NCBI RefSeq assembly: GCF_030284385.1
Contig: NZ_CP127221.1
Span: 1,054,001 to 1,118,000, forward strand
Origin: Altererythrobacter rubellus
GTDB lineage: Bacteria; Pseudomonadota; Alphaproteobacteria; Sphingomonadales; Sphingomonadaceae
Reading direction: 5' to 3'
Length of the DNA: 64,000 nucleotides
Shown: in pieces, positions 18,486 to 36,763 of the stretch
How the letters are laid out: each line of letters starts with the position of its first letter
How positions within the stretch are numbered: the stretch's first letter is position 1
The notes under the pieces: model-generated
What the model was told of the DNA's origin: nothing
Database searches by the model: none
What the model saw: the letters and a program-made list of their open reading frames with translations, nothing else
Program-made: the position numbers and the translations under genes

Positions 18486-19471
18486 TGAACGCGTCTGAAG
18501 GCATGAGGCTGATCAATCTTGACGAAGATGGCGTGGACCGCGCGTTCAGGCAGGACGTTTTGGCAGGGCTGAAGCAAGTCCCCAAGGCGATCCCGGCACG
18601 CTGGCTATATGACGATGCCGGTTCACAATTGTTTGAGGAAATCACGCAGCTGCCCGAATATTATCCGACACGCGCGGAGACCGATATTCTGAAAACGCGC
18701 GGCGGTGAATTCGCGGAATTGATCGGTCCGGGCAGGGCAGTGGTCGAATTCGGCTCTGGCAGTTCCGTTAAAACTCCGGTGTTGCTGTCTGCTATTGCGC
18801 CTGCGGCCTATGTACCGCTTGATATCTCTGGTGACTTCCTGCGCGCTTCGTCCGCTGAGCTCGCAGCCAAGTTTCCCGGCCTTCCAGTCTATCCGGTCGA
18901 GGCGGATTTCATGCGCAAGGTCGCACTGCCTGATGCAGTTTCGGACATGCCCAAACTTGGTTTTTTCCCGGGTTCCACCATCGGCAATATGGTCGCGCGT
19001 ACTGCAGTGGATCTGCTGCGGACAGTGCGCGAAACGCTGGGCGAGGGCTCAAAGCTCTTGATCGGTATGGACCTGATCAAGGATCCCGATGTCCTGATTG
19101 CCGCCTATGATGATGCGGCGGGTGTAACCGCTGAATTCAATTACAACCTTGTCCGTCGGATTAATCGTGAGCTCGATGGCGACATTCCGCTTGAATTCTT
19201 GCGGCATGAAGCGCGCTGGAATGATGACTTTGCGCGGATCGAGATGCACTTGGTCGCGCAGAAAGACATTAGCTTCAGCGTGTCAGGCCAGCCATTTGCA
19301 CTGGCTCAAGGCGAGAGTTTGCACACTGAAAACAGCCACAAATTCAGCCGACGTACGGGGAACACATTGCTGTTGGCAGGTGGGTGGACACCAACTCATC
19401 GATGGCTTGATAGCAAGGAACGCTTCTCGCTCGTGTTGGCCGACGCGTCGATCCCGCGCAGCGCACCCTAG
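18485..19471 (+). CDS. egtD: L-histidine N-alpha-methyltransferase EgtD
   Basis: 328 residues from the ATG that overlaps the egtB stop (TGATG). IPARWLYDDAGSQLFEEITQLPEYY is the conserved opening, VEFGSGSSVKTP the SAM loop, and FFPGSTIGNM a further family block. EgtD trimethylates histidine to hercynine, the substrate of EgtB. Together the two genes give the core of ergothioneine synthesis, a cytosolic thione antioxidant. A PLP C-S lyase (EgtE) is not in the window. Confidence 0.95.
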   Translation: MNASEGMRLINLDEDGVDRAFRQDVLAGLKQVPKAIPARWLYDDAGSQLFEEITQLPEYYPTRAETDILKTRGGEFAELIGPGRAVVEFGSGSSVKTPVLLSAIAPAAYVPLDISGDFLRASSAELAAKFPGLPVYPVEADFMRKVALPDAVSDMPKLGFFPGSTIGNMVARTAVDLLRTVRETLGEGSKLLIGMDLIKDPDVLIAAYDDAAGVTAEFNYNLVRRINRELDGDIPLEFLRHEARWNDDFARIEMHLVAQKDISFSVSGQPFALAQGESLHTENSHKFSRRTGNTLLLAGGWTPTHRWLDSKERFSLVLADASIPRSAP

Positions 19472-29739: not shown

Positions 29740-30818
29740 TCCAGCTTCATCACCCAGCCATGGGTGTCTTCCATTGCGCCGCGTTGAATCGCGACCAGCT
29801 TCTCGCGGAGCTTCATGGTCAGCTGACCGGGGCCGCCGCTGCCGATTGTGAACTCGCCATCATGGCTGGCAACCGTGCCGACAGGCGTCACCACAGCCGC
29901 GGTGCCGCAAGCCATAGTCTCCAGCAGTTTGCCGCTTTCCGCATCCGCGCGCCATTGATCGATGCTGTAGGGCTCTTCGCGCAGTTCCAGTCCCTCTTCG
30001 CGGATCAATTGGATCAGGCTGTCACGCGTTATACCGGGCAGGATTGTTCCCGTTAGCGGCGGTGTCACCACGCTGCCATCATCGAACACGTAGAACAGGT
30101 TCATGCCGCCCAGTTCTTCGATCCATTTGCGCTCGACCGCATCGAGAAACACAACCTGATCGCAGCCTTGCTCGATCGCTTCGGCTTGGGGCACGAGTGA
30201 TGCAGCGTAATTGCCGCCGGTCTTGGCCGCGCCAGTGCCGCCGGGGGCCGCGCGAACATAATCCTGGCTGACCCAGATTTTCACCGGGGCAGGGCCGCGT
30301 TTAAAGTAACTGCCGGACGGGCTGATAATCACAACGAATTTGTATTGTTTGGCCGGGCGCACACCAAGGAAAGCTTCGGATGCGAACATGAAGGGGCGCA
30401 GATAAAACGAGCCGCCTTCGACTGGCGGGAACCAGCTCTTGTCCTGCTCCACCAGCTTGCGGATGCTCTCAAGGAACAGTTTCTCTGGCAGTTCGGGCAT
30501 CGCCATACGCCGCGCTGAGGCATTAAAACGCCGCGCGTTTTCTTCGGGCCGGAACAGGGCCATGGTGCCGCCGTCCAGTTTATAGGCCTTCATGCCTTCG
30601 AAGATTTCCTGCGCGTAGTGCAGCACGCTGGCCGCCGGATCGAGCGGGATCGGCTTGCGGGGCCCGAGCGCCGCGGAAAACCAGCCGCCTTTCGCTTCGT
30701 CATAATCGATCACTACCATGTGGTCGGAAAAACACTTTCCAAAGCCAGGGTCAGCGATTGCCGCGAGGCGTTCTGCTTCGGGCGTTGGCGAAGGGTGGGT
30801 GATGTAGTCGAACAACAT
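29736..30818 (-). CDS. ilvE: branched-chain amino acid aminotransferase IlvE
   Basis: 360 residues from ATG 30818 (longer upstream frame lacks similarity and would read into the leader terminator). Fold type IV aminotransferase of the long, class II BCAT type: [44 protein letters not shown] (Lys for PLP is in the GGNYA neighbourhood), and [12 protein letters not shown]. It transaminates Leu, Ile and Val. It is the first gene of ilvE-trhO-GST and lies 41 bases downstream of the hairpin leader described separately, which probably controls it. Confidence 0.94.
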
Positions 30819-30858
30819 GGGAGTTGCGAATAGTGAGATGGAGGAACGAGGGCAAGAT

Positions 30859-30903
30859 ATGAAAAGGGCGGTCACCGCCGGTCGGGGTGAACCGCCCTTT
30901 CAT
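30859..30903 (-). terminator. terminator-like hairpin in the ilvE leader
   Basis: In the minus-strand RNA, ATGAAAGGGCGG pairs with CCGCCCTTTTCAT and, inside it, TCACC pairs with GGTGA after a one-base bulge, leaving a short GC-rich loop. Four U residues fall in the 3' arm and no long U tract follows, so termination efficiency is uncertain. It lies 41 bases before the ilvE ATG, the position expected of an attenuator. Confidence 0.6.
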
Positions 30904-30907
30904 GGTC

Positions 30908-30961
30908 AGCGGCGGCAAGCGCCGCTCACGAAGTCTCTATAGGTTCCGAACTTACCTATAG
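30908..30961 (-). promoter_or_regulatory. two further hairpins of the ilvE leader
   Basis: Hairpin A: CTATAGGT (30937-30944) and ACCTATAG (30954-30961) are perfect complements around a 9-base loop; the 5' arm in the minus-strand RNA covers the last two codons and touches the stop of the 18-codon ORF. Hairpin B: AGCGGCG and CGCCGCT (30908-30926) around a 5-base loop. A ribosome stalled on, or releasing from, the ORF would cover hairpin A. Confidence 0.55.
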
Positions 30962-31008
30962 TACCTCATGCGGAAACTTGCCGACCTCTCTACTGAACCA
31001 TGAGACAT
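30952..31008 (-). CDS. 18-residue putative leader peptide upstream of ilvE
   Basis: ATG at 31008 to TAA at 30952 encodes MSHGSVERSASFRMRYYR. The upstream sequence GAAAGGAGGTGATC complements the 3' end of 16S rRNA over about a dozen bases with 7 bases to the ATG, the strongest ribosome-binding site in the window. The peptide is unusual for an ilv leader: one Val, no Ile or Leu, four Arg of which three are the AGG codon, and a Tyr-Tyr-Arg end. Its stop is inside hairpin A. The placement suggests translation-dependent control of ilvE, but the sensed signal is not obvious. Confidence 0.5.
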   Translation of the reverse strand: MSHGSVERSASFRMRYYR

Positions 31009-31100
31009 CGGATCACCTCCTTTCGCGCTTGTAAGCCAAGACCCAGACCGCATCACCGGGGGCCGAGAGCCGCGTTCGCCGCTGGCCTCAGGTGTCAATC

Positions 31101-31116
31101 TGATTCATGTGAATCA
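31101..31116. promoter_or_regulatory. 16-bp palindrome next to a TTGACA box, upstream of the ilvE leader
   Basis: TGATTCATGTGAATCA is a near-perfect dyad (7-bp arms, TG centre). Two bases away, the minus strand carries TTGACA (31098-31093), a consensus -35 hexamer, although no convincing -10 follows at 16-18 bases. Likely an operator for the leader/ilvE promoter. Confidence 0.4.
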
Positions 31117-31193
31117 CGAAAACAAGACTTGAATTTTAGTTTTCCCACGTCAGAATAGTTCGCCTTCGCCAAGAGCGCTCTGCTTAAGAGTAT

Positions 31194-31715
31194 TTACCTA
31201 CAATCCTCGATTACGCGGGTCACTTCGGCCCATGCCGGAAGATAGAGCGGCTCCATGCCCTCGACTTCGACGGCGAAGCGCCCTTTGGTAATGGCCATTG
31301 CATCAAGGAGGCGGTTGTTTGCTGCCAGCTCAACCGCGATCAGGCCGGTCATTGGAACCGGCTGTGCGGTAAACAGCTGGTCTTGTGTCTCTGTTCTTAC
31401 ACGCATCAAGACATCGCCCACCTGTTCCGAGGAACGAGCGAGCCAAACTTGGCGCGTTGGTCTATCGCAGCGGATCATGAAATGTCGGTTATCCGGCATG
31501 GCGCGATCACCAAAATAGGCAAAGGCCTCACCCGGTTCGGAAACATAGACCCAAGTGCCGGGCGTTTGTGGCTGGTCGTTCCAGCTGCCATCATCTGCCA
31601 TCTCGATTTGAACCAGAGGCGTTTCATTTTCCTGCTGCTGAGCGCAGGCGGTGCTTGATCCGATCGTAAAGGTCGCCGCTAGCCCTGCGGCCATTTGCAA
31701 ATAGATGTGTTTCAT
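31194..31715 (-). CDS. exported protein of unknown function
   Basis: 173 residues from ATG 31715. A signal peptide (MKHIYLQMAAGLAATFTIGS...ACAQ) ends near residue 26. The mature part is a single beta-rich domain (WVYVSEPGEAFAYFG, MIRCDRPTRQVWLARS, AVEVEGMEPLYLPAWAE) with two Cys, one in MIRCD and one at the C-terminus (EDCR), suited to a periplasmic disulfide. I do not recognise the family with confidence; invasion-associated-locus-B-like proteins are a loose resemblance only. Divergent from tlyA, whose start is 51 bases away. Confidence 0.75.
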   Translation of the reverse strand: MKHIYLQMAAGLAATFTIGSSTACAQQQENETPLVQIEMADDGSWNDQPQTPGTWVYVSEPGEAFAYFGDRAMPDNRHFMIRCDRPTRQVWLARSSEQVGDVLMRVRTETQDQLFTAQPVPMTGLIAVELAANNRLLDAMAITKGRFAVEVEGMEPLYLPAWAEVTRVIEDCR

Positions 31716-36241: not shown

Positions 36242-36763
36242 ATGGCGGGCGAGGGGCGATCACTCGAACTGGCGATCATTCTGCCGACGCTCAATGAACG
36301 GGGCAATCTGGGGCCGCTGGCAAAAGCTGCCGGCACAAGCGATCGGATGCTCATCTGCCACTTCGGAAATAAAGAGCGGCTGATCAGTGAGTTGCTGAAA
36401 TTCATCGCAGATGCATATTCACAAGCGCTTGACCGGGCGCTGTCCGGCACCTGGCCGAAATCACGGCAGGAACTGCTTGATCGAATCACCTCCTTTACCG
36501 GTGGGTCGGAGATGGAGCCATTCCTGGCGCTCTGGTGGGACATCGTGGCCGGCTCCGCTCGCAATGTGCCGGGCTATAGGCACGCTGCGCAAAGTGTGAT
36601 GTCCCACTTGCTTGAATGGTTGATCAGGCAGATGCCGGAAGGGTATCCGGATCCAGAAGGCGGAGGGCAATTCTTGCTGACATTGATCGAAGGCGCTCAG
36701 ATGCTTTCGACAGCTGGCCATGCCAAGGTGGGGCGAGACGGGATTGCGGCGGCTCGCTTGTGA
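36242..36763 (+). pseudogene. chimeric frame: glycosyltransferase-2 N-terminus fused to a TetR regulator lacking its N-terminus
   Basis: 173 codons from ATG 36242, one base after the leuB stop. Residues 1-26 (SLELAIILPTLNERGNLGPL) are the start of a GT2 polyprenol-phosphate glycosyltransferase. From residue 27 (AKAAGTSDRMLICHFGNKER) the sequence is the second half of a TetR HTH followed by a helical ligand domain. The TetR first helix and turn are missing, and so is the whole GT2 catalytic domain. The join, near 36317-36322, is in frame. The product could still fold as a TetR-like ligand domain, but DNA binding is unlikely. Confidence 0.75.

Follow-up and report, generated by a model that had tools for sequence, protein, structure and literature searches.

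Leaders of the trp, his, and ilv type are ribosome-dependent attenuators, and SgrS is a dual-function sRNA. The Caulobacter small RNA CC2171 (Rfam family RF01867), which reportedly goes back to Landt et al in 2008, is listed by Rfam as a plain sRNA. The cell-cycle-regulated transcript CCNA_R0050, mentioned in a passage of PMC5988900, could be CC2171 by its map position. A literature search by the names CC2171 and RF01867 yielded, as relevant mentions in the portions of text covered, table entries in a Mesorhizobium sRNA list and in an Rfam update. Going by titles and the beginnings of abstracts, no paper describing an ORF in a CC2171-type RNA was found. In S. meliloti, 33% of 54 new short ORFs detected by Ribo-seq are located on annotated sRNAs, as stated in a section of PMC10117765.

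Here, a CC2171-like RNA is described that lies upstream of ilvE in Altererythrobacter rubellus, within the window, that is, the whole 64-kb stretch of DNA analyzed. The reading we favor, at a probability slightly below one half, is that of an independently transcribed CC2171-related RNA, which would function through binding of the 30S ribosomal subunit and through translation, not through the encoded peptide.

Results

The elements of the locus follow one another on the minus strand in the order CTTG, GAATC, 16S complement, ATG with the ORF, stop hairpin, second hairpin, CTGACCATG, and terminator (Table 1), upstream of ilvE (ATG at 30818, same strand; Aminotran_4 domain). A preliminary description had placed the 16S complement, an 18-codon ORF, the second hairpin, and the terminator here, and all of them are present; the complement, given there as 12 bases or more, extends over 15 nt, and the ORF runs exactly as described. 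The stop codon had been said to lie in a perfect 8-bp hairpin: the stem is indeed perfect, but it includes no more of the stop codon than its T. The 5′ end of the RNA was set from the promoter motif, and genus-wide conservation by BLASTN begins near 31090. A scan for E. coli-type promoters at the RNA returned none. Upstream of the −35 element, a TGACGnGGGAAAA-like box (31140–31152, minus strand) is conserved in 31 of 35 genus copies.

Table 1. Coordinates of the features of the locus within the window.
Feature	Position	Strand	Remarks
Putative promoter	31102..31126	-	−35 CTTG 31126-31123, 16 nt spacer, GAATC 31106-31102 (GANTC/CcrM-type site at −10 region)
RNA gene (predicted extent)	30861..31095	-	CC2171 model spans 31031-30865
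16S rRNA 3′-tail complement GAAAGGAGGTGATCC, 15 nt	31010..31024	-	Predicted duplex −28.0 kcal/mol
18-codon ORF MSHGSVERSASFRMRYYR + TAA	30952..31008	-	ATG at 31008, stop TAA 30954-30952
P1 helix, 5′ strand CATGGTTCAG	30993..31002	-	ORF codons 3-6
P1 helix, 3′ strand CTGACCATG	30901..30909	-	Directly before terminator
Hairpin across stop codon, 8 bp	30937..30961	-	Pairs changed on both sides: alignment columns 136-175, 137-174, 138-173
Second hairpin AGCGGCG/CGCCGCT	30908..30926	-	Kept in genus; by eye missing from some sphingomonads
Intrinsic terminator AAAGGGCGGT ... ACCGCCCTTTT	30861..30900	-	Genus alignment has stem pairs with both partners changed

At Rfam's own cut-offs, the only match in the 64-kb window was a tRNA. 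A known riboswitch or leader was thus not found at these cut-offs, and a relaxed search of positions 30700–31300 yielded RF01867 alone. The CC2171 model matches the locus end to end (model positions 1–159, 44.5 bits, E 4.3e-8), and the alignment includes both P1 and the terminator; the score lies below the gathering cut-off of 75. By its full-length match, the RNA is therefore a predicted CC2171 homologue, not a family member by the Rfam cut-off. The same 1–159 match was obtained at all five sphingomonad loci tried (41.5–52.5 bits) and at seven of the eight other alphaproteobacterial loci tried. Across the class, the model matched 31 of 142 genomes at E ≤ 0.01, five of the 142 reaching the gathering score of 75. 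By eye, four of the 30 RF01867 loci fetched (L234, L237, L238, and L239) lack the box and are chance-like. Two of the 14 control genomes gave a match, Caulobacter above the cut-off and Deinobacterium, from outside the class, below it. The sphingomonad G150 carries two RNAs of the CC2171 type (L218 and C1:2921849-2922077): one copy is Caulobacter-like, with 68.9 bits and an altered box, the other has 34.6 bits and the exact box. At a Pelagibacterium locus (L130:5129-5280), an FMN riboswitch follows ∼80 nt downstream of the CC2171-type RNA.

With 301 nt of the locus as query, BLASTN found it in 37 of 61 genomes, namely in all 37 of the genus (including its own) and in none of the 24 others. An alignment of 35 genus copies (35 of the 37 genomes; G006, without the exact 13-mer, and G016 were left out) showed the 16S complement, ATGTCTCATGGTT, and GTGAGCGGC/GCCGCTGACCATG to be invariant or nearly so, and the flanks to be variable. 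The reach of BLASTN is confined to the genus because only these short elements, and not the flanks, are invariant. Within the family, the pattern AAGGAGGTGATCCNATG, used instead, was found in 217 of 298 genomes, representing 79 of 96 genera, at most once per genome listed, with no match for the reversed control. Within the class, the pattern AAGGAGGTGATCCNNTG was found in 58 of 289 genomes from 46 of 218 genera, again with none for the control; the exact pattern is absent from 81 of the 298 family and 231 of the 289 class genomes. A scan of named genomes returned at least 118 stretches. Among the named matches listed, most are from Sphingomonadales and Rhizobiales (Mesorhizobium, Rhizobium, Phyllobacterium, Chelativorans, and Pelagibacterium), others from Hyphomonadaceae, Oceanicaulis, and further Alphaproteobacteria, and a few are probably due to chance (an actinobacterium and an archaeal metagenome-assembled genome). 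The full set comprised 247 copies, 203 of them distinct. Missing conservation of ORF and stems in close relatives had been named as an outcome that would speak against the preliminary description; ORF, strong ribosome site, and stems were all found in relatives.

The 14-mer AAAGGAGGTGATCC occurs a single time in the 2.296-Mb assembly of the organism. The next-best exact complement of the 16S tail in the window is 12 nt long, lies antisense inside an ORF (36486–36497, minus strand), and was taken as chance. The assembly, listed as 99.99% complete, gave no match to 16S rRNA, which is masked or missing there. The 16S tail CTGGATCACCTCCTTTCT was found in seven of the 26 genus genomes searched, including that of the same species (G663), so that the 15 nt can pair with it. 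A copy or an antisense piece of 16S rRNA was considered and rejected, as the match ends at 15 nt and the following NATG does not fit 16S antisense. The latter continues with AGCC past the tail complement; in the genus genomes examined, CTGG precedes the tail. A perfect complement of the 16S tail is also present before ORFs of 57–59 codons resembling small secreted proteins (L129, L162, and L174; Azospirillum, MSHG...) and, in L260, before the ORF VRISAFVLAAAML..., which likewise resembles a small secreted protein; here, that ribosome site seems to be put to another use.

The duplex with the 16S tail is predicted at −28.0 kcal/mol, compared with −6.6 for AAGGAG, and the Shine–Dalgarno (SD) sequence is predicted to be slightly less paired than the entire RNA (unpaired, 0.37–0.39 versus 0.30–0.32 as group means; 200 sequences). 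Both values would suit a decoy that titrates 30S subunits via its over-strong SD with little or no elongation; such a decoy, which has no need of a stop codon at a fixed place, is quite unlikely.

When the copies were fetched with the RNA model, a search that imposed no start codon, each of the 20 distinct copies with the exact 13-mer had ATG, GTG, or TTG exactly 1 nt downstream of the element. Five further copies with an altered element keep the start codon, by eye, at the same place. In copies fetched with the patterns, which end in NATG or NNTG, the start codon is present by construction. Among 114 distinct sphingomonad sequences, the ORF has 18 codons in 95, 19–20 in 14, and 16 in two, the remaining three being unrelated long ORFs; outside the sphingomonads, it has 20–26 codons in 76 of 92. 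The stop codon of the 114 sequences is TAA in 74, TGA in 31, and TAG in nine, and the first stops of the two alternative frames fall at scattered positions. When 96 copies, all of them with 18 codons and thus chosen for a stop at codon 19, are placed on a tree, the type of stop changes at least 20 times. The counts of ORF lengths and stops include the three Azospirillum copies with 57–59 codons and other ORFs of more than 36 codons (Virgisporangium, Thermoproteota, etc.), all of which were excluded from the P1 tests, the duplex and accessibility predictions, and the promoter and neighbor counts.

The constancy of start, stop, and length could be taken to mean that the RNA is a small mRNA whose function resides in the encoded peptide of 18–26 residues, the more so as the N-termini MSHGS, MSS, and MSN recur within clades. 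In S. meliloti, the 23-residue protein SEP1 has the highest translation efficiency among unannotated short ORFs, as reported in a section of PMC10117765. Its length comes close to that of two 24-residue rhizobial ORFs of the present set. However, residues past codon 5 change freely: neighboring sequences differ by 62 nonsynonymous and 14 synonymous changes, and the third codon position is the least variable (entropies of 1.06, 1.13, and 0.79). The N-terminal codons are invariant at synonymous sites as well, so that RNA pairing can explain their constancy. Selection on the peptide, looked for by codon-position entropy and neighbor differences, was not found, and a function of the peptide is unlikely. 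Codon-level conservation of the 18 residues, the check proposed in the preliminary description, is thus missing, and the AGG arginine codons and the Tyr-Tyr-Arg end, suggested there as sensing codons, are not conserved, the peptide ranging from MSHGSVERSASFRMRYYR to MSHGSVARSVKIPTEHTR within the genus. In rhizobial copies (L096 and L118), a hairpin such as GGGAAG-CAGT-CTTCCC was seen by eye just before the stop. It encodes a recurring ending that contains Q, and this C-terminal "motif" is therefore probably RNA structure. A draft genome of a congener (G006; L039/L276, G006:C46 ∼18840–18865) has kept both flanks of the locus but lacks 68 nt with the SD and almost the entire ORF, which is either a natural deletion or an assembly artefact.

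Thus, translation seems to have been kept and the peptide has not, and the mini-ORF is, by this pattern, likely translated. Counted against it was a statement by Schrader et al (2014; a passage in PMC4117421) that most Caulobacter ncRNAs are located in intergenic regions found untranslated by ribosome profiling; CC2171 may be one of these ncRNAs.

Another way to account for the strong SD would be an sRNA that acts by base pairing or as a sponge, with its GGAGGU bound to the CCUCC loops of anti-SD sRNAs; the ORF would then be incidental. Small RNAs with CCUCC loops do occur in Alphaproteobacteria. BbsR14 of Bartonella is an example (a passage in PMC7717549), and Caulobacter CrfA is described as a sponge for SisA-D (a passage in PMC12559287). 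Yet the complementarity at the locus covers 15 nt of the 16S tail and not CCUCC alone, the start codon is kept at one spacing, and the stops turn over at one codon; a sponge is accordingly quite unlikely.

A 238-nt stretch of the locus folds at −109.6 kcal/mol (z = −4.2), and none of 200 shuffled sequences folded as well. Judging from this z-score and from the conservation in genus, family, and class, the predicted structure exceeds chance. P1, present in the minimum free energy (MFE) fold and in the Rfam model, pairs codons 3–6 with the segment before the terminator, and both of its sides change together across clades (CATGGTTCAG/CTGACCATG; CATTGTC/GGCAATG in L113; ATGAAT/ATTCAT in L223; ATGAG/CTCAT in L131). 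In a permutation test with one copy per distinct segment (47, from 246 copies including duplicates), the native mean run was 5.0 and the permuted one 4.22; none of 500 permutations reached the native value, the highest being 4.72. A cruder test by duplex energy, in which the native pairing was the stronger one in 74 of 95 and that of control windows in 58–69 of 95, is unspecific and lends P1 weak support. RNAalifold did not choose P1 in the genus alignment, where it hardly varies. There, 13 of the 55 predicted pairs changed on both sides, including pairs of the stop hairpin and the terminator. A hairpin with a T-run was found in 245 of 246 copies (duplicates included) by loose criteria and without a shuffle control. 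Of the three stems for which a check of covariation had been proposed, stop hairpin and terminator thus show changes on both sides. The second hairpin does not extend beyond the genus as a universal feature; it is by eye absent from L074–L081 and was rejected as an essential element.

CTTG-N16-GANTCA precedes the RNA in 32 of the 35 genus copies with upstream DNA, a count that covers G016. Among 114 distinct sphingomonad copies, 84 have CTTG-N13..20-GANTC, compared with a mean of 1.9 and a maximum of 6 in dinucleotide shuffles of stretches of equal length, and the spacer is exactly 16 in 82 of the 84. In other alphaproteobacterial copies, CTTG...GANTC was found in five of 99 (shuffle mean, 1.5); by eye, Rhizobiales copies have a promoter-like CTTG...CCCAT ∼20–30 nt before the box. 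The middle base of GANTC is C in 31, T in 30, and A in 22 of a separate count of 83. As GANTC is kept while its middle base is free, which is the pattern expected of it, selection for a CcrM site is suggested. The genome encodes GcrA (81.7 bits, in a search that also matched Sulfolobus among the controls) and, in a 379-residue frame, an N6_N4 methyltransferase, a family match that does not imply identity with CcrM. The promoter in the window has the GANTC site of GcrA/CcrM-controlled promoters. The extended GcrA motif, YGAKTCG according to a passage of PMC7987155, is absent there (TGAATCA). In sphingomonads, transcription of the RNA is, by this motif, probably tied to CcrM/GcrA and hence to the cell cycle.

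In 35 of the 37 genus genomes, the RNA lies upstream of ilvE and is read in the same direction, with gaps that reach 1186 nt; the exceptions are G029, where the two are divergent, and G032, where they are ∼500 kb apart. Downstream neighbors were tallied for 208 distinct loci whose ORF has at most 36 codons, with downstream ORFs called mechanically and filtered by codon-position G+C. The closest one is on the same strand in 112 loci and on the opposite strand in 82; the other 14 loci have none. An unfiltered tally of 214 loci (same strand 88, opposite 101, none 25; largest cluster 27) is misleading, since 18 of its opposite-strand ORFs are shadows of ilvE. The 194 downstream ORFs fall into 111 clusters, of which the largest, with 55 members, is ilvE and the next has 12. 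ilvE is the following gene, in the same orientation, at 55 of the 108 sphingomonad loci with a downstream ORF (28 from the genus and 27 from other sphingomonads, such as Novosphingobium), and in none of the 86 other alphaproteobacterial loci.

The preliminary description took the locus for a possible translation-controlled leader of ilvE, in which translating the 18 codons decides between terminator and read-through, perhaps only in sphingomonads with this gene order. That the filtered tally puts ilvE downstream in 55 loci adds weight to this proposal and takes some from a stand-alone RNA; the terminator sits just before ilvE, and the ORF with its hairpins resembles an attenuator. Against it stand the gap of up to 1186 nt and the two congeners in which ilvE is not in cis. 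Moreover, a different gene lies downstream in 53 of the 108 sphingomonad loci and in every one of the 86 others, with the parts of the RNA unchanged. As had been noted from the start, the ORF contains no Ile or Leu codon and a single Val codon, so neither cognate control codons nor a conserved operon linkage was found, and the MFE fold lets P1 and the terminator coexist. On synteny and codons, an ilvE attenuator is hence judged unlikely; the relative of the RNA is a free-standing sRNA family. The linkage to ilvE is, in the gene orders compared, a trait of a clade, and the RNA exists without it. With no shared downstream gene outside the sphingomonads, a stand-alone RNA of the CC2171 type is very likely; what speaks against the explanation preferred here is that ilvE follows in half of the sphingomonad loci, which would allow a role in cis in that clade.

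Discussion

The comparison suggests that the relatives of CC2171 span many alphaproteobacterial families and that their common feature is a perfect ribosome-binding site with a mini-ORF retained for the sake of translation. By its footprint, a ribosome on this ORF would exclude a closed P1. As the two would be mutually exclusive, the RNA should have a ribosome-bound and a free state. Under the reading of an independently transcribed RNA working through the ribosome, a 30S subunit would be captured by the SD, either while the RNA is still being made or once it is complete. Initiation at the ∼18-codon ORF and its translation would then hold P1 open and bring the terminating ribosome to the stop hairpin. 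In an RNA free of ribosomes, P1 would close and the RNA fold as one domain. The working part would be binding and translation as such, and it is probably occupancy by the ribosome that counts. Output would be in trans, through RNA stability, holding of the 30S subunit, or a 3′ segment released to pair with other RNAs. A translation-dependent switch is put forward tentatively as the function, at somewhat less than even odds. One step further, and rather doubtful, the ORF of fixed length and free sequence would be a docking track for ribosomes, with P1 reporting the supply of initiating ribosomes under GANTC control in sphingomonads. If true, CC2171 would be a sensor of ribosome availability rather than a target-pairing sRNA. 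The finding offers a route to how Alphaproteobacteria might sense ribosome supply.

Attenuator leaders of the trp, his, and ilv type, including rnTrpL/peTrpL of S. meliloti (a section of PMC10117765), share with the RNA a short ORF, hairpins, and a terminator. In contrast to them, it has no control codons, its P1 does not exclude the terminator in the predicted fold, and no operon linkage is conserved beyond a part of the sphingomonads. Spot 42 encodes a 15-residue protein, going by an entry in the reference list of PMC10117765. The dual-function sRNAs SgrS and Spot 42 are likewise stand-alone and carry a short ORF, but the conserved functional peptide of that class was not found here, the peptide being unconserved, and the SD is a complement of the 16S tail. 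The Caulobacter RNA CcnA (CCNA_R0094), which is located at the replication origin and acts via a CCCC loop according to a passage of PMC8959179, is similar in kind, as an alphaproteobacterial ncRNA linked to CtrA/GcrA; it was rejected as the same RNA, as both locus and loop differ. With CC2171 itself, the RNA shares the GAAAGGAGGUGAUCC box, the place of the start codon, the P1 pairing, and the terminator. The five CC2171 copies above the cut-off have an ORF of 22–26 codons starting with GUG, whereas that of the window has 18 codons and starts with AUG, and the RNAs of the genus differ further from CC2171 by their longer 5′ part and the GANTC promoter.
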